A DNA stretch of 64,000 bases from Gemmatimonadota bacterium (GTDB lineage Bacteria; Gemmatimonadota; Gemmatimonadetes; Longimicrobiales; Gaopeijiaceae): positions 94,486 through 158,485 of the forward strand of contig JAJDXG010000045.1 of assembly GCA_022823365.1 (NCBI GenBank). The letters run 5' to 3'. The notes under the pieces are model-generated. The model was not told the origin of the DNA, did no database searches, and worked only from the letters and a program-made list of their open reading frames with translations. Below, piece after piece: positions 3,404 to 61,637 of the stretch. Made by a program: the position numbers and the translations under genes. The first letter of the stretch is position 1. Every line of letters starts with the position of its first letter.

Positions 3404-4387
3404 ATGGCCTATCCGCAGCACCGCCTCCGCCGCCTCCGGCAGTCGCCGGCCTGGCGCCGCCTGGTGCGCGAGAGCGTGCTCCGGGTGGACGACCTCGTGT
3501 ATCCGCTTTTCGTGGTGCCGGGCGAACGACGGCGCCAGCCCGTGCCCAGCATGCCCGGGATACACCGCTTCTCGCCGGGGCTGCTCGTGGAGGAAGCCGG
3601 AGCGGCCGTGGACGCGGGGATCGGCGCCGTGCTGCTCTTCGGGGTGCCCGACCACAAGGACGCGCTCGGCTCCGAAGCCTACGCGGAGGGCGGCCTGGTT
3701 CCGCGGGCGGTGCGTGAACTCAAGGCGCGCTACCCCGAGCTGCTGGTGTGGACCGACGTGTGCCTCTGCCAGTACACCGACCACGGCCACTGCGCCGTGC
3801 TTGCAGCGGATGGCTCCCTGGACGAGGACGCCACCCTGCCCCTGCTCGCCCGGGCGGCCGTCTCCCACGCCCGCGCGGGAGCGGACGCGGTGGCTCCGAG
3901 CGACATGCTGGACGGGCGCGTGGGCGTGATCCGGGCGGCCCTGGACGACGCGGGCCACGGCTCGACGCCGATCGTGTCGTACGCGGCCAAGTACGCCTCC
4001 GCCTTCTACGGTCCCTTCCGCGACGCGGCCCACTCGGCGCCTTCGCACGGCGACCGCCGCACCCACCAGATGGACCCCGCCAACAGCGACGAGGCCCTGC
4101 GCGAGGTGCGGGCCGACCTGGAGGAGGGCGCGGATATCGTGATGGTCAAGCCGGCAGGCCCCTGCCTCGACGTGATCCGGCGGGTGAAGGACGCCTTCCG
4201 CGCGCCCACCGCGGCCTACCAGGTGTCCGGGGAGTTCAGCATGATGCGCGCCGCGGGCGAGCGCGGCTGGATCGACGAGAGGGCGGTGGCGCTGGAGAGC
4301 CTGGGCGCGATCAAGCGGGCGGGCGCGGACATCATCGTCACCTACTACGCCGTGGAGGCCGCACGCTGGCTGCGCGACGACGCCTGA
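3404..4387 (+). CDS. hemB: Delta-aminolevulinic acid dehydratase (porphobilinogen synthase)
   Basis: This 327-residue cytosolic enzyme condenses two 5-aminolevulinate molecules to porphobilinogen. The active-site lysines are K196 (SYAAKYASAFYGPF) and K249 (MVKPAGPCLDVI). The metal site has three cysteines, C120, C122 and C130 (DVCLCQYTDHGHC), which marks the zinc-dependent class. It follows hemA directly. The step between them (hemL) is not in the window. Downstream, an HmuY-like gene starts 20 bases after the stop, extending the haem-related theme. Confidence 0.96.
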   Translation: MAYPQHRLRRLRQSPAWRRLVRESVLRVDDLVYPLFVVPGERRRQPVPSMPGIHRFSPGLLVEEAGAAVDAGIGAVLLFGVPDHKDALGSEAYAEGGLVPRAVRELKARYPELLVWTDVCLCQYTDHGHCAVLAADGSLDEDATLPLLARAAVSHARAGADAVAPSDMLDGRVGVIRAALDDAGHGSTPIVSYAAKYASAFYGPFRDAAHSAPSHGDRRTHQMDPANSDEALREVRADLEEGADIVMVKPAGPCLDVIRRVKDAFRAPTAAYQVSGEFSMMRAAGERGWIDERAVALESLGAIKRAGADIIVTYYAVEAARWLRDDA

Positions 4388-6783: not shown

Positions 6784-6873
6784 TGCCCTGCCCTCCCGGA
6801 GTGAGCGTCCGCTCGCACCCGCCGGTCCGTCAACCTGAACGGCCGCCGGCGCGGCCGGCCATCCACAGGAGAA

Positions 6874-7893
6874 ATGGAAGCCATCCACGAAAGACTGCTC
6901 GCGTGGTTCGACGCGCACAAGCGGGACCTGCCGTGGCGGGGGGTCGGCGACCCCTACGCGGTGTGGATCTCGGAGGTCATGCTGCAGCAGACGCGAGCCG
7001 GCTCCGTGGCCCCCTACTACCGGCGCTGGATGGAGCGGTTCCCGGATGTCGGCACGCTCGCGAACGCCGACCTGGAAGAGGTGCTGCGGCTGTGGCGGGG
7101 GCTGGGGTACTACGCCCGCGCGCGCAATGCCCACCGGTGCGCGCGGCAGGTGCGGGACGGGCATGGCGGTGTATTGCCCTCGTCGGCCGCGGGCCTGCGG
7201 GCCCTGCCGGGGATCGGGCCGTACACCGCGGCCGCGGTGGCCAGCATTGCCTTCGGGGAGGTGGTGCCGGCCGTGGACGGCAACGTGCGCCGGGTGGTGG
7301 CGCGGCTGTTCGACCTCCCCGATCCCTCGCTCGCGGAGGTGCGCGACCTGGCGGCTGGGCTGATGGACACGGCCCGCCCTGGCGACTTCAACGAGGCCAT
7401 GATGGAGCTGGGGGCCACGGTGTGCACGCCCCGGTCGCCGAAGTGCGGCGCATGCCCGCTGGCGGCGGGCTGCCGGGCGCGCGCGGCCGGCACGGCGGCG
7501 GAGCGGCCGCTGAGGCGAAGGCGGCGCCCGGTGCCCACCCGGACCTGGGACGTGCAGATCGCGGTCTCGCCGCGGGGCAGGACGCTGGTGGTGCGGCGCC
7601 CGCGCGAGGGGCTGCTGGGGGGGATGTGGGAGTTTCCGGCGGTGGAGGTGGCGGATGGCGCCGACCGGGGTGGGCGACCGATGAAGGTCGCGGAGCCCGC
7701 GGCGGCGGCGGTCGCGGAACTGCCCCCGGTCACCCACCGGTTCTCGCACTTCACCGCGGTGTACCGGCCGCGGCGGGTCGAGGTGGCCGCGGAGTGGGGG
7801 GAGGCGGCGGGCCGCTGGGTCACCCCGTCAGAGCTGGCCGACCTCCCCCTTCCGGTCGCCCAGCAGCGCATCGCCCGGGCAGCAGGCTTCTGA
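6874..7893 (+). CDS. mutY: A/G-specific adenine DNA glycosylase
   Basis: This 339-residue base-excision repair enzyme removes adenine mispaired with 8-oxoguanine. Catalytic Glu34 (WISEVMLQQT) and Asp135 (PAVDGNV) are present, with the helix-hairpin-helix LPGIGPYTAAA at 111-121 and the [4Fe-4S] ligands C184-x6-C191-x2-C194-x5-C200. The C-terminal half is a NUDIX-like 8-oxoG recognition domain (GGMWEFPAVEV). Start ATG with AGGAG just upstream. It sits alone on the plus strand between minus-strand genes. Confidence 0.96.
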   Translation: MEAIHERLLAWFDAHKRDLPWRGVGDPYAVWISEVMLQQTRAGSVAPYYRRWMERFPDVGTLANADLEEVLRLWRGLGYYARARNAHRCARQVRDGHGGVLPSSAAGLRALPGIGPYTAAAVASIAFGEVVPAVDGNVRRVVARLFDLPDPSLAEVRDLAAGLMDTARPGDFNEAMMELGATVCTPRSPKCGACPLAAGCRARAAGTAAERPLRRRRRPVPTRTWDVQIAVSPRGRTLVVRRPREGLLGGMWEFPAVEVADGADRGGRPMKVAEPAAAAVAELPPVTHRFSHFTAVYRPRRVEVAAEWGEAAGRWVTPSELADLPLPVAQQRIARAAGF

Positions 7894-15870: not shown

Positions 15871-18414
15871 GTGGGCGAACGATACAGGCTACCCGTGCTT
15901 CCGCTGCGGGACACGGTGGTGTACCCGGGGGTGGCGGTGCCCATCTCGGCCGGTCGACCCGGTACCATTGAGGCCGTTCAGGCTGCCCTCGAAGGAGATC
16001 GCAAGCTCCTCGCGGTGGCCCAGCGGGAGAACGTGGACAAGCCGACCCCCGAGGGGCTGTACGAGGTCGGCACGGTGGTGCGCGTCATTCAGACCCACCG
16101 CGTACGGGCCGGAATCCAGCTCCTGGTGCAGGGGGACAGGCGGGCGCAGGTCCTCTCCTACGAGAAGCGCGGCAAGGCCATGCTCGCGGCCATGGTTCTC
16201 GACCTCGAGAGAATCCCGCCTCGCAGCGAGCAGGATCCCGCCTTCCGGGCGCTGGACCGCGAACTGCGCGACCGGGCGGCCGGGCTGGGAACCCGGCGCG
16301 GCGTCCCTGCCGAATCGCTGAACCAGCTCATCCAGGGGGTGGACGAACCGGGCGCGTTCGCGGACCTGGTCGCGTTCTACCTCGATCTGCAGACCGCCGA
16401 GAAGCAGCGGCTGCTGGAGGTGCTCGACGACGAGGACCGCATGCGCCAGGCGCTCGTGGCGGTGGAGCGCGAACTGGTGCGGCTCAGCGCGCAGGAGGAG
16501 ATCCAGGCCCGGGTGCAGGAGGAGCTGGGGGAGCGCCAGCGCGAGATGCTCCTCCGCGAACAGATGAAGCAGATCCGGCGCGAACTGGGCGACGAGGACG
16601 AGAAAGCCGAGCTCGACGATCTGCGCGAGCGGATCGAGGCGCTGCGGCTCAACGACGACGCCCGCGCCGAAGTGCAGCGGGAGCTCAAGCGCCTGGGCCG
16701 GACCAACCCCCAGTCGGCCGAATACCAGGTCATCCGCACCTACCTCGAGTGGATCACGGAACTGCCCTGGGACGATCGCACCGAGGACAAGATCGACCTG
16801 GAGACGGCTGCGGACGTGCTCGCCGAAGACCACTACGGGCTGGAGGACATCAAGGACCGCATCCTCGAATTCCTCGCCGTGCGCAAGCTTCAGGCGGAAC
16901 GGGCGCCGGACGCCGATGAAGCGGAAGACGAGGACGTGGGAGAGGAGGAAGCTCGGCAGCAGGCCCCGGTTGGGGCCGCCCGCAATGGATCCCCGGCGGA
17001 CGACGAGCCGGCCAGTGTATCGCCGCCCTCGAGCGGCCAGGGGCCCATCCTGCTTTTCGTGGGCCCGCCAGGTGTCGGCAAGACCAGCATCGCGCAGTCC
17101 ATCGCCCGGGCGATCGGCCGCAAGTATGTGCGCATCTCGCTGGGCGGCGCGCGCGACGAAGCGGACATCCGGGGCCATCGGCGGACCTACGTGGGCGCCA
17201 TGCCGGGCCGCATCATCCAGGGGATGCGCCAGGTGAAGTCGAAGAATCCCGTGTTCCTGCTCGACGAGGTCGACAAGCTCGGCGTCTCCTTCCAGGGGGA
17301 TCCCAGCGCGGCTCTGCTCGAAGTGCTGGACCGGGCCCAGAACTGGACCTTCACCGACCACTACCTGGGCATCCCCTTCGACCTGTCGGAGGTGCTGTTC
17401 GTCGCCACCGCGAACTACTGGGACCGCATTCCGCCCCCGTTGCTCGACCGCATGGAGCGGGTCGACTTCAGCGGCTACACCGAGCAGGAAAAGCTGGAGA
17501 TCGCCAAGCGCTACCTGCTGCCCAGACAGCTGGAGGAAAACGGGCTGCGCGATGATGAGATGGAGCTGGGCGACGAGGCCATCCTGAACGTGATCAGCGA
17601 ACACACGCGGGAAGCCGGGGTGCGCCAGCTGGAGCGCGAGATCGGAAAGCTGGCGCGCAAGGTCGCGCGCAGGATCGCCGGCGGCGGATGCGAACAGGTC
17701 GTCGTGGACCAGGCCGTCGTGCGCGAGTTGCTCGGCCGCCCGCGGGTGCACCCGGAGGTGATGGCCGAGGAGGACCGGGTGGGTGTGGCCACCGGAATGT
17801 TCTACACGCCCACCGGCGGGGACATCATGTTCGTGGAGGCCAGCGTCATGCCGGGGAACGGCAAGCTGGTACTCACCGGGCAACTGGGCGACGTGATGAA
17901 GGAATCGGGGCGTGCGGCGCTGACCTATGCCCGCAGCCATCACCAGAGTCTCGGGATGTCCGTGGAGGACGTGCTGGACAAGGAAGTGCACATCCACGTG
18001 CCCGCGGGCGCGGTGCCCAAGGACGGTCCCTCGGCCGGGATCACGATGGCGACCGCGCTCATCTCGGCGCTTTCGGGGCGGCCGGTGAGGCGCGACGTGG
18101 CCATGACCGGCGAGCTGACGCTGACGGGCAGGGTGCTCCCCATCGGCGGGCTGAAGGAGAAGATCCTGGGCGCCGTGCGCGCCGGCATCCACGAGATCGT
18201 GCTCCCCGCCGAAAACCACGCCGATCTGGAAGATCTTTCCGACGAGGTGCGCGCCGACCTGGTGCTGCACCTGGTCGACGGTCTCGACGACGTCACGCGG
18301 GTGGCGTTCGCGGGCAGGCCGGGCGCCGGGGAAGACCCGGTCGAGGCCGCCGACCCGATGGCGCTGCTCGCCCCCGACGGCTCGTCCTCCGCGCCCGAGG
18401 TCGCGACGCACTGA
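15871..18414 (+). CDS. lon: ATP-dependent Lon protease
   Basis: This 847-residue cytosolic AAA+ protease degrades misfolded and regulatory proteins. Domains in order are the LON substrate-binding domain (from [14 protein letters not shown]), coiled-coil helices (about 180-270), AAA+ with Walker A GPPGVGKT at 398-405 and Walker [11 protein letters not shown], and the peptidase with Ser721 (KDGPSAG) and Lys764 (GGLKEK). Unusual: an acidic, Pro/Ala/Ser-rich insert of about 45 residues (roughly 344-391) sits just before the Walker A motif. Start GTG at 15871 with AAGGAG at 15857-15862. Upstream lie repeated CTGNCA-N3-TGNCAG motifs, consistent with stress control. Confidence 0.96.
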
Positions 18415-18449
18415 CCGAGCCGACCCTCGAGGTTGCGCCCGGCGCCGTG

Positions 18450-19547
18450 ATGGGGCGGCATCACGGGCGGCAGACGGCGCGTCACTTCGGCCGGCCCGAC
18501 CTGGAGTACCAGGCCGCCGTGGGCTCGGCGGCCGTCCTCGATCGTTCGCACCGCAGCCGGCTGGCGGTCTCGGGCCGGGCGCCGGTGCGCATGCTGGCCG
18601 GCGTGCTCACCAACAGCGTCCCGCCACCCCCCGGGCCGGCCGCCTCCGGACTGCTCGCGGGGCGCACGGCCTACAGCGCCGTGCTCATCCCCAAGGGACG
18701 CATGGTCACCGACCTGGTGGTCGCCTGGAGGGGCACCCGCGAGGACCGCCACGGGCTCTGGCTGCACGTTCCGGCCGCCGGACACGCCCCACTGGCGGCC
18801 CACCTGCGCAAGTTCCTGCCGCCCCGGTTCGCCTTCGTCGACGACGTCACCGAGGCGACCGGCACCCTCACCATCGCCGGCCCGGACGCCGCCGGTATGG
18901 TGGCGGCCGCCCTCGGGATCGCCTCCGGCGAGCTCGCCGCCCTCGACGCGGACGGCTGCCTCCTCACCGGCCCGCCGCCGGACGGCCTCCTGGTCGCGCG
19001 CCTCGCCGAGGTACGGCTGCCCGCCTTCGACATCCTGGGTGACCGGGCCGCGCTCGCACGGCTGGGCGCCGAGCTGGTTCGCCTGGGCGCGGCACCGACG
19101 GGCATGGGCGTCTTCGAGACGCTGCGCATCGAGGCGGGCCGGCCCGAGTTCGGCCTCGACATGGACGACCGCACCATCCCCACGGAAGCGGGCATCGACG
19201 CGCGCGCCATCGACCATGGCAAGGGCTGCTATACGGGACAGGAAGTGATCGTGCGCATCCGCGACCGCGGCCACGTCAACCGGCATCTGCGGGGCCTTCT
19301 GCTCGGCGATGCGCCCGCCCCGGCGCCGGCGACCCCTTTGTACTCGGGCGCGAAGGCCAAACCGGTCGGGCACGTCACGAGCGCGGTCATGTCGCCCGCC
19401 TTCGGGCAGACCATCGCGCTGGGTTTCGTGCGCCGGGAGGTCATCCCGCCCGCCGAGCTTCGCCTGGGGAGCCCGGACGGGGCGCCGGCCGGGGTGCGGG
19501 CGCTGGGGAAAGGCGGCTGGGAGCTTCAGCCGGGCGACCTGAGCTGA
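18450..19547 (+). CDS. ygfZ: YgfZ/GcvT-family folate-binding protein
   Basis: This tetrahydrofolate-binding protein of the YgfZ/IBA57 family helps assemble or repair [4Fe-4S] proteins. The signature KGCYTGQE is complete (Cys260, counting from this start), preceded by the [10 protein letters not shown] segment. The ATG at 18450 gives 365 residues; GTG at 18447 is equivalent. A CTG at 18411 that overlaps the lon stop (CTGA) would add 13 residues and couple the gene to lon, matching the arrangement seen at two other junctions. The only GcvT-like protein in this window is this one; a true aminomethyltransferase is not present beside gcvHP. Confidence 0.88.
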
Positions 19548-24102: not shown

Positions 24103-26409
24103 TTATCGGGGATCGTCGGCCGGCCGGCGGATGGTAAGCTCGCGCTCGACGCTGACGGAGGCGCCGGTGGTCCGGTCGGTGATGGCGATGATCAGCCGGT
24201 GCGCCCCCTCCCCGGCTTCATCGGCCGAGACGGAGAAGTACTCGGGCACGACTCCGTCGACGGGCTCGACGTTGCGCACGAAGCGGACGGCCAGGTCGCC
24301 CACCGCGCCGCCTATCAGGTTGCCCAGCGAGCGCAGGAGGCGCGCGCCCACGTTGCGCCGCTCAGCATCCTGCAGCGTCACCTCCACGGTGTACTCCGAC
24401 GAGCCCATGAAGTCGGTGGTCAGCCCGTAGATCTCCATGTAGACATGGATGTCGTCGTCCGCGTCGAAGATCAGGTCGCGCGAGGCGCCGATGGCGAAGT
24501 CGCGCCATCCGCCCGGCTGCTCGACACGCGGAATCACCCCGCCGGCCAGAACCAGGTCGGACGTGGACAGGCCCACGCGCCGTACGGGAATGGCGGTGAT
24601 CGTCCCCCGGTTGCGCGCGGCTACGCGGGAATCCGCCGCCAGCCCCTCGAGCGAGTATTCGAACGTTCCGCGGGGCAACTCGAAGGTGAAGAGAACGTTG
24701 CCCGTGTCTTCGGCCTTCACCGCGTGCGTCACGCTGGCCGAGTCCTCATAGCTCCGGTTGAACAGGAACATGCCGACGCGCACGGAGTCGCCTTCGAACA
24801 GATTGAAGGAGTCCGGGTCGGCGCGCAGGAAGGCCAGCACCTCCACCTGCCCGGGAGCCGCACCCCGGAACCGGGCGATCTGCGCGGGGATCTCCGTCCA
24901 CCGGTTGACTGCACGGCTCTCGAAGGTGGTAGTGGCCTCGGTTTCGCTGACCTGGCGCAGGTATTGTCCCGTGTTCGCGTCGAAGTCGAAGCCGACCCGG
25001 CTGTACCCCAGCTCCCGATGGAACACGAAGCTGGGCACCTCCAGCCGGTAATTCCAGAAGATCCACCGCCCGTTGGCGCTGGCACCGGCTCGCTGGGCCG
25101 CGCCTCCCAGCCCGGTGCCGGCGCCGTCCTGCCGCAGCATCCAGATGTTCGCAGGGAGGCCGTAGCGTATGAGAACCTGGCCCCGGTCGCTGCTCCAGCC
25201 CGGCAGACGCCGCTCGGGATCTCCGAAGGCCAACTCGGCGTGGGTGACGCGCGCGACGTGCTCCATCGCCCGCTCGTTTTCCGGAATCAGGAAGAGCGGA
25301 TCGGACTTGGCCCACAGGATGCGCTCGTATTCCCGTGCGTTGCCCGACTCGAGCCGCTGGTATTCGGCCGCGTCCTCCTCGTTCAGGAGGTAGGAAACGT
25401 TGTCGTAGGGGGCTCGCTCGGCCGGAGGCATGAGAGCGAGGCCGGTATCGAAGGCATTGCGGGCAGCGGTCCAGTCCAGCGACTCGTAGAACGCCAGCCC
25501 GAGGAAGATGTGCGCGTAGGGATCGTCGGGGTTCACCTCGGCAAGGCGCTGTGCCTCGGTCGCCATGTCCTCCAAACGGCCCTGGCGATGGAGCAGCGCG
25601 AGCAGTCCGCGGGCAGCCTGGGGGTGGTCCGGCACGTACGACAGAGCAGCCCGGTAGTGGGCTTCGATGCGTGGCGGGTAGTCCACGTCCCGGTCGCTGG
25701 CGCGCCCCGCGCGGGCCAGCTGACCGTTGAACGTGCGAGGTTCCGTGTAGTTGAGGCAGAAGGCCTGGACCCCGGCGGGGCAGCGCGTCGATCCCGCGTA
25801 CTCGTCCGTGCCGAGCGACCCGTCCCGCCGCCACCCGGCGGGCAGAAAGACCAGATGCTCGAAGTCCTCCATTTCCTCGGTGAGGATGCGCGCCAGCACA
25901 AAGTGCGACTGGGCCAGAACCCGTGGTTCCACGGCGCGGCTGCCTTCGGACGCGACCGTGCGCTCCAGAATCCTGCGCGAGTCCACGCGCATGAACTGGC
26001 GCCGCTTGAGCAGCGCCATCTCCAGCAGCACGCCTGCGTCCTCGTGGAGTCCCTCGTACGCCTCCTCAAGCAGCGCTTCCGCCTCCATCCGCTGCCTGAA
26101 GTCGGTCTCTCCCAGGGGCGCGGTGCGCGCCAGCAGCGTGCCCAGGGCGAAGGCGATGTGGGGATCGCGGTCGTCTTCCTCGCGAGCGGTGCGCAGCAGT
26201 CCGAGCGCGGCGGTCGTGTCGCCGGCTTCGAGCAGGCTCGTGGCCCGGGCCACGGCGCGCGGCACCGGAGCTGCCTGCACGGACGGCTCCTGAGGCGCAG
26301 GTCCCGCGGGCAGGACGGGATTCGCGGAAGCAGAGGCGGGTACGGGCACTACCAGAACCCACGTCAGCCACGTCAGGATACCGCGGGGCCCCCGAAGCGA
26401 CCGGCTCAA
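24103..26409 (-). CDS. GWxTD-domain protein with TPR-like repeats, exported
   Basis: This exported protein of about 768 residues begins with an N-terminal signal segment (ILTWLTWVLVVPVPASASA), then TPR-like helical repeats (roughly residues 40-360, for example DPYAHIFLGLAFYESLDWTA), then the GWxTD region with GWSSDRGQVLIRYGLP, where the usual Thr is Ser. The C-terminal third is beta-rich. GWxTD proteins are typical of Gemmatimonadota, Acidobacteriota and Bacteroidota; function is unknown. No ATG or GTG fits: TTG 26409 is used here, but CTG 26418, overlapping the stop of the upstream gene as CTGA, gives MKALSRSLRG plus the signal and is equally good. Confidence 0.8.
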   Translation of the reverse strand: MSRSLRGPRGILTWLTWVLVVPVPASASANPVLPAGPAPQEPSVQAAPVPRAVARATSLLEAGDTTAALGLLRTAREEDDRDPHIAFALGTLLARTAPLGETDFRQRMEAEALLEEAYEGLHEDAGVLLEMALLKRRQFMRVDSRRILERTVASEGSRAVEPRVLAQSHFVLARILTEEMEDFEHLVFLPAGWRRDGSLGTDEYAGSTRCPAGVQAFCLNYTEPRTFNGQLARAGRASDRDVDYPPRIEAHYRAALSYVPDHPQAARGLLALLHRQGRLEDMATEAQRLAEVNPDDPYAHIFLGLAFYESLDWTAARNAFDTGLALMPPAERAPYDNVSYLLNEEDAAEYQRLESGNAREYERILWAKSDPLFLIPENERAMEHVARVTHAELAFGDPERRLPGWSSDRGQVLIRYGLPANIWMLRQDGAGTGLGGAAQRAGASANGRWIFWNYRLEVPSFVFHRELGYSRVGFDFDANTGQYLRQVSETEATTTFESRAVNRWTEIPAQIARFRGAAPGQVEVLAFLRADPDSFNLFEGDSVRVGMFLFNRSYEDSASVTHAVKAEDTGNVLFTFELPRGTFEYSLEGLAADSRVAARNRGTITAIPVRRVGLSTSDLVLAGGVIPRVEQPGGWRDFAIGASRDLIFDADDDIHVYMEIYGLTTDFMGSSEYTVEVTLQDAERRNVGARLLRSLGNLIGGAVGDLAVRFVRNVEPVDGVVPEYFSVSADEAGEGAHRLIIAITDRTTGASVSVERELTIRRPADDPR

Positions 26410-26414
26410 GGCTT

Positions 26415-26708
26415 TCAGGGAAGAATGGACCGGAGCAGCGCTTCCAGTTGATGGCGCCTGAAGCTCTGTGCCTTCTCCACGGCGAGCTCGTACGATTCCT
26501 CGACAAAAATGGCCGCGGTCTGCGCGGCGTCCCCGGATTCGCCATCGGCCGGCGAATAGACGAGCTTCGCCCGGCACGGCTCCCCGCTCGCGGATCGCTT
26601 GGTCTCGAATTCCAGATAGACGTCCCAGATTCGATTCTGGTACGTGATGGTGGCGAGGTGCTGGCCCGGCATGGGCCTCAGGTCGGAGGGTACCGCAGGG
26701 TCGATCAT
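26415..26708 (-). CDS. Small hypothetical protein upstream of the GWxTD gene
   Basis: This 97-residue soluble protein has a mixed beta/helix pattern (HLATITYQNRIWDVYLEFET, then FVEESYELAVEKAQSFRRHQ). It has no signal peptide and no recognised family. The stop overlaps the probable start of the GWxTD gene (CTGA), so the two form one transcription unit. The stretch upstream (26709-26943) is non-coding. Confidence 0.6.
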   Translation of the reverse strand: MIDPAVPSDLRPMPGQHLATITYQNRIWDVYLEFETKRSASGEPCRAKLVYSPADGESGDAAQTAAIFVEESYELAVEKAQSFRRHQLEALLRSILP

Positions 26709-58509: not shown

Positions 58510-60558
58510 CTAGAAGAGGTCGCGGAAGCGTCGGTTGAGGTCGAGAACGACCTCCCATGAGCCGCCGTTCAGTCCGCGCACCACATCGACCAGGATGAGA
58601 TCCCAGCCGAGCGCGAGCCCCATCCCGGCGGAGAAGCGGGTGATCCGGGGTGGGCGGGCGTCCCACGATGCCGGAACCGCCGCGGAGGCGAGCCGGGTGC
58701 GGCCGGCCGCGCCCACCCCGCGGAGCCGCAGCCACCGGCCGAAGAGTTGGCGGGAGCCTTCGACCCGTAGCAGCCAGAAGGCGTCGCCGGCCAGGGAGCG
58801 GTAGCCGTATCCGGGAAGGGTCTCGCGGCCTCCAAGGAGGTAGAGCGACTGCGGCGGCGCGCCCTCGGAGACGACAGCCGCGTCCAGGGACGAGCGGAGT
58901 TCCACGCCGTGTTCGAGCCAGCGGCGGCCGGCCGCGAGACGCAGGGACGCTTCCTGGTAGGGGGCGCCGTCGAGGTTCGCCCAGGTGGCGCCCCCTTCCC
59001 CGAACAGGCGGTCGGGAGAGCCGAGCGACGCGGACAGGCGGACGGCGGTCAGGTCGCCCTCGTCGATGGTGCGCACCGGACGCCAGCCGCCTGGCTCTCC
59101 ACCGACGGCGACGCGCGCGCCGTGATGGCGTTCGTAGCGCACCTCGGCGCGCGCCGAGACCGGGCCGAACGAGCGGCCTGCGCGGGCACGGGCGCCCGTC
59201 GCGAAGTAGGGGTCCGTCCAGTCGGTCTGGTGAAGCAGCGAGGAGAGGGTGTTCATGATCCGGCTCGACCCGGGCACCGGTCCGATATCGCGCGGCTCGC
59301 GCAGAAAGAGATCCAGGCCGACGGTGCTCGGCCGCTCGCGGTCAGGGGCCTCGAACACGGCGCTCACGCGACCCACGGGACGTTCTCCGGCGTGGGCGTA
59401 GCCCAGGAGCGTCCCGATATGCAGGCGGTTGGTCGCGCGAAGATTGAAGCCGCCCTGGGTAACCCAGCCTTCGGCGCGGTTGTAGCGTACCGTTTCGGAG
59501 AGGGGCGGCATCGCGAGACGCAGGCGGCCGAGCCCGCTCAGGTACCGACCGCGCACCAGTCGGGTCGCCTCGGCCTCGATGTCGATCAAGTCGGCGGTGG
59601 GGGCGAGTCCCTCCTCGTCGACCTGGGCGTAGAGATCACGCTCGAAGGGGAAGGCCAGCATCGGGTCGGGGTTGCGCACGATCTGCGGCCCCAGGAAGAA
59701 CAGGTCGGGGAGATCGTCCTCGAAGTTGTAGCCGCCGATTTCCCAGCGGCCCCGAATGACGCTGCCCACGGGAAGATCGAGGAACGGGAGTTTCCGCCGG
59801 ATCTCGAGGCTCTGCCGGTAGGGGAGCCAGTACCGGCGATCCCAGAGGGCGTTTTCCAGCGATACCCGGATGTAGTCGAGCTGCCGGTCGACGTAGGACG
59901 CGGGCGTGAACGTGAAGTTCATGCGCACGACCGCCGCCGTCTCGCGATCGAGAAAGAGGGTGCCCACGAAGCCGGGCTGGTCCGGATCGCGCGGCCGCAC
60001 CTGCACCTCGTACACCCGGACGGGGTCGAGGCCGTCCGCGAAGGCGACCGTGATCGAGTCGGCCAGCAGGTACTCGTAGCGGGCGGCCGCGCCCGGAGCG
60101 AGGGGATGGATAACCGAAGACACCTCGTCGCCGTCGCCGATGCGGATCACGTCGCCAAAGTTCTCCTGGACGATGACCAGGTGGTCGAGGTGGTAGCGGA
60201 TGTTGGTGGGCATCCGCCGGCCGTCGCGGCGACCGAGAATGTGCTGCCTGGTCAGGCCGGGCGCCTTCCAGTACACGCGCACGGCGAGCTGGTCGGTCTT
60301 GACCAGGTTGCGTTCCTCGCCGGCCTCACGGTCGAGGAAGAAATAGACGTAGCCGCGTGCGTCGGCCGTATACGCGCGCAGGCCGTCCATGACGGCGGCC
60401 TGTCGGGTGGCGGTCGCGCGCTCGACGAGCTCCAGCGCCCGGAGATCGTCCCACGAGGAAGCCTGTTGTGCCGAGGCGGGAGATACGCCGGTGGCGAGGG
60501 CGAAGGAAACGCCGATGGCGAGGGCGAGCAGAATGTCCTGAACCGAAAACCGGGTCAG
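58510..60558 (-). CDS. Exported outer-membrane beta-barrel protein, probable CTG start
   Basis: This protein of about 682 residues has a clean signal peptide when read from CTG 60558 (TRFSVQDILLALAIGVSFAL, ending PASAQQ). There is no ATG, GTG or TTG near: the first in-frame ATG is about 60 codons later and would delete the signal. CTG overlaps the sigma-factor stop (CTGA). The N-terminal half resembles exported carboxypeptidase-regulatory-like beta domains; the C-terminal half has alternating barrel strands and ends in Phe (FRDLF), the C-terminal signature for BAM insertion. The family is not identified with certainty; surface-antigen/BamA-like is plausible. Confidence 0.75.
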   Translation of the reverse strand: MTRFSVQDILLALAIGVSFALATGVSPASAQQASSWDDLRALELVERATATRQAAVMDGLRAYTADARGYVYFFLDREAGEERNLVKTDQLAVRVYWKAPGLTRQHILGRRDGRRMPTNIRYHLDHLVIVQENFGDVIRIGDGDEVSSVIHPLAPGAAARYEYLLADSITVAFADGLDPVRVYEVQVRPRDPDQPGFVGTLFLDRETAAVVRMNFTFTPASYVDRQLDYIRVSLENALWDRRYWLPYRQSLEIRRKLPFLDLPVGSVIRGRWEIGGYNFEDDLPDLFFLGPQIVRNPDPMLAFPFERDLYAQVDEEGLAPTADLIDIEAEATRLVRGRYLSGLGRLRLAMPPLSETVRYNRAEGWVTQGGFNLRATNRLHIGTLLGYAHAGERPVGRVSAVFEAPDRERPSTVGLDLFLREPRDIGPVPGSSRIMNTLSSLLHQTDWTDPYFATGARARAGRSFGPVSARAEVRYERHHGARVAVGGEPGGWRPVRTIDEGDLTAVRLSASLGSPDRLFGEGGATWANLDGAPYQEASLRLAAGRRWLEHGVELRSSLDAAVVSEGAPPQSLYLLGGRETLPGYGYRSLAGDAFWLLRVEGSRQLFGRWLRLRGVGAAGRTRLASAAVPASWDARPPRITRFSAGMGLALGWDLILVDVVRGLNGGSWEVVLDLNRRFRDLF

Positions 60559-61415
60559 TTCGCGCTCCAGAAACCGGACAGCGAATCCCCGTGCGGGCTG
60601 TCGCGCAGCTTTTCGAAGGCGCGGTTGCGAATCTGGCGAATCCGTTCGCGCGTGACCCCCAGCAGCACGCCGATCTCCTCGAGCGTGCGCTCCTCGCCGT
60701 CGTCCAGGCCGTAGTAGAGGTAGAGGATCTTGCGTTCGCGTTCCGTCAGGTACCTCTCGAACATGTCCTCCATGAAGGCCCGGCGCGCCAGCGCCTCCAC
60801 ATCCAGCTCGATGTCCGCGGCTTCCACGCCGGCGAAGCGTTCGCCGAAGCTCGAGCTGTCCCGGTCCCGGCGGTCGATGGGGGCGTCCAGGCTGAGTTCG
60901 GTCGCGGCCACCCGGCGCAGCGCGCGGATGGTCTCGACGGGCTCCTGCATCTCCTTGGCGATCTCCTGATCGGTGGGAGAGCGGCCCAGCTCCTGGGTCA
61001 GCGCGGTGTCGGTGCGCGCCAGCTTGGCGAGGTTGGAGTTCTGGTTGAGCGGGATGCGCACCGAACGGGTCTGTTCGGCCAGCGCCTGCAGGACGGTCTG
61101 CCGGATCCACCAGACCGCGTAGCTGATGAACTTGACCCCCTTGTCGGGATCGAATTTCTTGACCGCCTTCAGCAGGCCCTCGTTGCCGATGCACACCAGT
61201 TCGGCGAGGCCGAGGCCACGGCCCTGGTACTTCTTGACGTAGGAAATCACGAAGCGGAGGTTCGCGGTCACCAGCCGCTCCGCCGCTTCCATGTCCCCGG
61301 TCCGGGCGCGCCTTGCCAGCTCGCGCTCTTCTTCGGGATCCCGGATCAGCGGGTACTTCTCTACGTCCTGCAGGTACTGATCGAAGGAATCCAGACCACG
61401 GGAGGATGAGAACAT
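60555..61415 (-). CDS. RNA polymerase sigma-70-family factor (RpoD/RpoS-like, non-ECF)
   Basis: This 286-residue sigma factor has region 1.2 (SFDQYLQDVEKYPLIRDPEE), region 2 with the RpoD box (KFDPDKGVKFISYAVWWIRQ), region 3 and region 4.2 with helix-turn-helix (TLEEIGVLLGVTRERIRQIR). It lacks the large non-conserved N-terminal region of primary sigma-70, which fits a group 1/2 short factor such as RpoS, or the SigA of some phyla. It is followed immediately by the outer-membrane gene in a CTGA overlap. ATG 61415 is chosen as the conserved N-terminus begins there; a longer frame to 61517 has no homologous sequence. Confidence 0.9.
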   Translation of the reverse strand: MFSSSRGLDSFDQYLQDVEKYPLIRDPEEERELARRARTGDMEAAERLVTANLRFVISYVKKYQGRGLGLAELVCIGNEGLLKAVKKFDPDKGVKFISYAVWWIRQTVLQALAEQTRSVRIPLNQNSNLAKLARTDTALTQELGRSPTDQEIAKEMQEPVETIRALRRVAATELSLDAPIDRRDRDSSSFGERFAGVEAADIELDVEALARRAFMEDMFERYLTERERKILYLYYGLDDGEERTLEEIGVLLGVTRERIRQIRNRAFEKLRDSPHGDSLSGFWSAN

Positions 61416-61637
61416 CCAGTGCGCGCCTACCGGGGGTGGGTCTACAAACGGCGAATGCCGGGTCCAGGAACAACAAGTCGGGAAATGTAACACTGCCGAT
61501 GCCGACCGGTCTACCACTGATTCTTCTGACAGGTCAGACCCCGGTTTTGTTGTGTCTCCGGGCTGTGGCGAGCCGGGATATGAGATGATGGAGCGCCTTC
61601 CCGCTCCCGGCGCTCGCGCGGATTCACCTGCAAGCCG

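Follow-up and report, generated by a model that had tools for sequence, protein, structure and literature searches.

Four-base NTGA overlaps (-4 nt), in which the stop codon of one gene overlaps the start codon of the next, are described as the commonest gene overlap (PMC12548453), and translational coupling at such overlaps by termination-reinitiation is reported there and in PMC10666635. The junctions considered here share with these systems the four-base TGA/NTG overlap between co-directed genes, in a genome in which ATGA and GTGA are common. They differ in that N is C, a variant that shows no phase enrichment, and in that the coupling is one that we infer. CTG starts have been annotated for 20 of nearly 85,000 genes of model genomes (PMC11983097). 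The same paper describes the rep gene of F-type FIB plasmids, a gene of low expression that starts at CTG but whose annotated start had long been a GTG lying 14 codons downstream, and it reports N-terminal and mutational proof of the CTG. In being missed by annotation, this start resembles the putative start at our main junction. It differs in that rep is plasmid-borne, has a ribosome binding site of its own and a proven CTG, and has no stop overlap mentioned for it, whereas the start discussed here is putative.

Within a sigma-factor operon, a non-canonical start that is conserved is known from sigR of Streptomyces, which starts at GTC and is repressed by IF3 (PMC5472188). In that case the codon is GTC and not CTG, the ribosome binding site is strong (AGGAGGTG), and the odd start lies on the sigma gene itself and not on its partner. 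A word of caution comes from dnaA of Caulobacter, where an upstream CUG with a Shine-Dalgarno sequence forms an initiation complex in vitro and is reportedly not used in vivo (PMC8443254). A CTGA-coupled start was not found in the literature searched, which lay mostly outside subscription journals.

The window, that is, the whole stretch of 64,000 nucleotides that we analysed, has a GC content of 68.7% and was placed in contig C63 of a 3.8-Mb genome (G000) in 63 contigs. Throughout, ATG, GTG, and TTG are referred to as canonical starts. Eleven genomes of the genus were compared, as well as G017 from another genus; the close relatives of G000, which we take to be the sponge-associated Palauibacter group, are metagenome-assembled genomes. 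The first-pass annotation had listed three CTGA overlaps in the window, and all of them are in place: J1, between a sigma factor gene and an outer-membrane gene (60555..60558, minus strand), J2, between a 97-residue gene and a GWxTD gene (26415..26418, minus strand), and J3, between lon and ygfZ (18411..18414, plus strand). At each of these the TGA is the upstream stop, the CTG is in the downstream frame, and the 4-nt overlap has the right phase for coupling. RNA folding showed nothing notable at J1, J2, or J3 (z -1.33, -0.89, and 0.72, respectively).

At J1, the upstream gene encodes a sigma-70 family factor with regions 1.2-4 (60555..61415, minus strand), and the downstream gene spans 682 codons when read from the CTG (58510..60558, minus strand). 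Its product is a weak match to the DUF5686 model (36.3 bits, below the cut-off of 39.2). We also observed that the outer-membrane frame is open through most of the upstream sigma gene (58510-61476), in genus relatives too, which is probably a side effect of the GC-rich codon usage. The nearest in-frame canonical codons are a GTG at codon -184 and an ATG at codon +56. The earlier claim that ATG, GTG, and TTG are missing here was thus confirmed, with the distance downstream corrected from 60 to 56 codons. Moreover, from -102 to +103 nt not a single ATG, GTG, or TTG occurs in any frame. To put this in perspective, a genome sample of 1,008,239 bases (26% of the genome, 794 genes called with a simple codon-usage caller of our own) contains 3367 CTGA followed by 56 open codons. 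In-frame ATG, GTG, and TTG are absent at 345 of these, and only one, J1 itself, also lacks them in every frame between -102 and +103. J1 is exceptional within the sampled genome.

We next compared J1 across the relatives. Orthologs with at least 86% identity are present in nine of the eleven genus genomes (G006 has a distant match only, and G007 none), and CTGA is kept in all nine without any swap to a canonical NTGA. In-frame canonical codons are absent from -184 to +56 in G000 and G003 and to +40 in G008 and G009, and in these four species every frame is free of canonical codons between about -100 and +103 nt. In three other genomes (G002, G004, and G010), a TTG follows some 11 codons after the CTG. 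In G005 and G001 the CTGA is kept, yet extra intergenic DNA follows that holds ATG starts. In the alignment this extra DNA is missing from the other seven genus orthologs, and a further 12 bases, carrying the TTG, are missing from G000, G003, G008, and G009. A tree from four coding regions did not group these four TTG-less species, so that more than one order of events at J1 is conceivable.

The possibility that an assembly error conceals an ATG, GTG, or TTG at J1 appears very remote. The relatives that share the J1 state are themselves metagenome assemblies, which leaves this explanation some room, but the state is identical in the assemblies of four species, those of G003, G008, and G009 matching separately named ones. 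In addition, because no frame holds a canonical codon over about 200 nt, a single indel would reveal none.

The mature outer-membrane protein is under purifying selection, with dN/dS values of 0.19-0.27 in six comparisons (for G000, 0.253 against G003, 0.197 against G008, and 0.192 against G009). The protein is therefore kept, and hence translated; and since it is made in four species that offer no canonical start, a non-canonical start is required. We thus consider it highly likely that the J1 outer-membrane gene uses a non-canonical start. Read from the CTG, the protein has a hydrophobic stretch and a putative ASA-type cleavage site of a signal peptide, judged solely by eye and hydropathy.

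The choice among the non-canonical codons can be argued from their surroundings. We favor the CTG of the CTGA, which is probably, though by no means certainly, the start, because it alone touches the stop codon, has a GGAG 6 nt upstream (60565..60568, minus strand), and gives the n-region an arginine. This GGAG, Shine-Dalgarno-like as it is, may be incidental, being part of the sigma C-terminal codons. A less likely reading that still carries some weight is that initiation, coupled or with its own ribosome binding, takes place at another non-canonical codon, namely ATT/ATC at codon 8, CTG at codon 9 (60529..60534 for the two, minus strand), or CTG at codon -4. Each of these lies in frame and is kept in G000, G003, G008, and G009, an AGGA lies 4 nt before CTG 9, and the infC genes of the genus (see below) indicate that other non-canonical codons are in use. 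However, starting at codon 8 or 9 would leave the signal peptide without a positive residue, starting at codon -4 would add two acidic residues, and none of these codons overlaps the sigma stop. The substitution pattern does not discriminate: in the signal-peptide region 4 of 12 variable columns fall at position 3 (p 0.61), with 2 synonymous and 8 non-synonymous variants, and without a third-position bias substitutions cannot identify the start codon.

Outside the genus, the equivalent of J1 in G017 again reads CTGA; the frame is closed by a stop 67 nt upstream and contains no canonical start up to beyond +120. The sequence there is LTLRAPRGERRWPLLLFLFALSAAFPSPAPARAQQ, with a positive n-region. 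G017 is an independent case of CTGA without a canonical alternative, and in G000, G003, G008, G009, and G017 a conserved functional product has no canonical start available. On a larger scale, 127 genomes were matched at differing thresholds and 66 loci of the outer-membrane gene were fetched, of which 65 were examined (L031 was dropped, its contig beginning at the match). By a crude hydrophobic-window rule, a canonical start lies no more than 25 codons ahead of the hydrophobic stretch at 55 of the 65. The ten that do not are spread over 6 genera; besides the five genomes just named they comprise L014, L096, L106, L110, and L118, orthologs from other genera whose starts may lie at other codons or whose boundaries may be poorly drawn.

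At J2, the GWxTD-domain protein gene (24103..26418, minus strand; TIGR04514, E 1.5e-11) follows a 97-residue gene (26415..26708, minus strand) for which no family was found by profile matches. From the CTG the GWxTD gene would gain a signal peptide, but a canonical TTG at codon 3 (26407..26409, minus strand), found in 7 of the 10 genus members, had been overlooked. The signal peptide read from this TTG is almost unchanged, and the CTG is therefore not needed at J2 in this genome. The comparison covered the ten genus members with this N-terminus (L059 gave no match, and L042 lacked the N-terminus), nine of which have CTGA, with TTGA in G006. TTG 3 is absent in G009, G001, and G006. Downstream of the CTG, G009 and G001 have their first in-frame canonical codons at +60 and +48 nt, respectively, within the hydrophobic stretch; upstream, the nearest in-frame one is a GTG at a distance of 53 codons. 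For these two genomes a CTG start would be the natural reading of the sequence. The TTGA of G006 could stem from a chance C/T difference in the last codon of the upstream gene, and the disputed segment has 10 of 28 variable columns at position 3 (p 0.46). A separate idea, that a TGA inside a second GWxTD homolog in 11 of 11 genus genomes is a recoded codon, was dropped, as it is the gene's own final stop.

At J3, conserved as CTGA in 10 of 10 genus members, the lon protease gene (15871..18414, plus strand; the codon-usage caller prefers a start at 15895) overlaps a ygfZ-like gene of the GcvT fold (18411..19547, plus strand). A GTG (18447) and an ATG (18450) follow 12 and 13 codons after the CTG. 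Among the ten genus members codons 4-11 vary synonymously only, codons 2-3 vary freely, and 4 of the 8 variable columns of the segment are at position 3 (p 0.26). The GCV_T match begins at residue 8, and on visual inspection the alignment of homologs from other genera seems to extend upstream of the ATG. Because all ten members keep the ATG despite this upstream homology, neither start was preferred at J3. CTG initiation, as originally proposed for all three junctions, is thus well supported at J1 (CTG, or at least a non-canonical codon), supported at J2 through the relatives, and undecided at J3.

Two further CTGA overlaps were followed through the genus. The first, outside the window at C63:24108, belongs to a Sir2-type deacylase gene that has GTGA in 8 of 10 genomes and CTGA in G000 and G003, with equal spacing. 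In G000 the first canonical codon lies at residue 20, downstream of the predicted N-terminus STSVDLER, and NCBIfam NF001753 aligns from residue 8 (model position 4); in G003 a GTG at codon 13 is also present. Here 11 of 19 variable columns are at position 3 (p 0.024), so that of the codon-position tests on the disputed segments that of Sir2 alone is suggestive. As far as sequences can tell, this would be the cleanest start-codon swap that we found, a short protein from residue 20 being still possible. The second is the in-phase CTGA of an HmuY-domain membrane protein gene (4384..4387, plus strand), kept in 9 of 10 genomes with TTGA in G001. A GTG (4408) lies 8 codons on in all ten, and 2 of 3 variable columns are at position 3 (p 0.26; rows without the CTG, their last codon being the GTG).

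A non-canonical start of another kind was seen in infC, the IF3 gene (L258, G000:C42, match 6860-7114, and L259-L268). Following a GGAGG, it has ATA in 10 of 11 genus genomes and ATC in G007, and near this start no in-frame ATG, GTG, or TTG was found in any of the eleven; in G007 the open frame extends further up. The infC gene starts at ATT in E. coli and at ATC in Streptomyces (PMC5472188). The starts in the genus fit this known infC habit, which suggests that IF3 discrimination operates in the genus. A tRNA scan of 49 stretches, covering part of the genome, gave three tRNAs and one tmRNA, none of them special-looking.

We then considered whether CTGA forms a genome-wide start class, using the 499 same-strand pairs of the 1,008,239-base sample in which the downstream start lies at most 250 nt from the stop. 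When the TGA is preceded by A or G, the overlap phase is strongly enriched over the other two phases (66/0/15 and 54/7/20, respectively). No such codon-phase excess was found for C (53 versus 42 and 52, p 0.47), nor for T (13/9/8, p 0.50). Of the 40 open in-phase CTGA, 15 are TGATG overlaps, in which an ATG follows immediately; without these the 53 for C drop to 38. Without a phase excess, in-phase CTGA occur at chance level, and true CTGA starts must be few. The codon-usage score of the gap between CTG and canonical codon is positive at only 6 of 21 CTGA junctions with the first canonical codon at least 8 nt away; among these we did not count C63:67432, where an ATG with a strong Shine-Dalgarno sequence is present, nor C63:207522, with a TTG 14 nt further on. 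At least three in-phase CTGA (C63:45507, 160969, and 194860) were discarded as starts in a six-genome comparison of C63, because in a relative a stop or a frameshift intervenes before the ATG.

One could go further and regard all three original CTGA overlaps as coincidence, with starts at TTG 3 (J2), ATG 13 (J3), and ATG 56 (J1, truncated and non-exported). The missing phase excess, the presence of TTG 3 in 7 of 10 and of ATG 13 in 10 of 10 genus members, and the exclusion of at least three other in-phase CTGA all point that way. But ATG 56 would remove the entire signal peptide of the outer-membrane protein, a canonical start ahead of the hydrophobic stretch is present at 55 of the gene's 65 loci, and the Sir2 family model reaches upstream of the first canonical start, so that we find this reading quite improbable. 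CTGA is a coincidence in most cases and occasionally a start, probably one used by termination-reinitiation at a weak codon. Across the genome such starts would be rare, about a handful per 800 genes, and J1 as a CTG start is a rare individual case and not a genome-wide habit. The suggestion that the three junctions form a pattern parallel to the ATGA overlaps therefore finds no support in this 26% of the genome, and the proposed count of CTGA overlaps against chance turned out negative. Overall, the original observation is right, and its reading is right in substance for J1, fair for J2, and wrong as a general pattern.

For J1 the following course of events would account for the data. The ribosome would end the sigma factor at the TGA, slip back one base, and, as a post-termination ribosome, reinitiate with fMet-tRNA at the CTG to give the signal peptide MTRFSVQDILLALAIGVSFALATGVSPASA. 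The CTG would have pre-existed as the end of the conserved sigma C-terminus (AAC-TGA). In the relative L028, where the outer-membrane gene starts far off, the sigma end has the same GGAG/CTGA letters; since these are shared and the sigma end is conserved, the overlap at J1 most plausibly predates its use as a start and was exapted. If the change ran in this direction, the intergenic DNA in which relatives carry their ATG would then have been lost, and this would have pressed the CTG into service. Translation of the outer-membrane gene would be coupled to that of the sigma factor, presumably at a low yield. CTG reportedly gives about 10-fold lower expression than TTG, a result that PMC11983097 credits to Hecht et al. 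A bolder proposal is that, within the family, this pair of genes has lost its canonical start again and again (10 of 65 loci, in 6 genera) because selection favors a weak, stop-coupled, and IF3-sensitive start that holds the level of the membrane protein well under that of the sigma factor, with CTGA as a regulated, stop-coupled start class invisible to annotation programs; we regard this as unlikely.

Taken by itself, a CTGA at a junction in this GC-rich genome mostly reflects the frequent third-position C and is not evidence of a start. In genes of the J1 type, gene callers limited to ATG, GTG, and TTG would cut N-termini and lose signal peptides. The change from GTGA to CTGA at Sir2 and the loss of ATG at J1 together make up a naturally replicated set, with which one may ask whether a ribosome that has just terminated accepts CTG more readily than a free 30S subunit.
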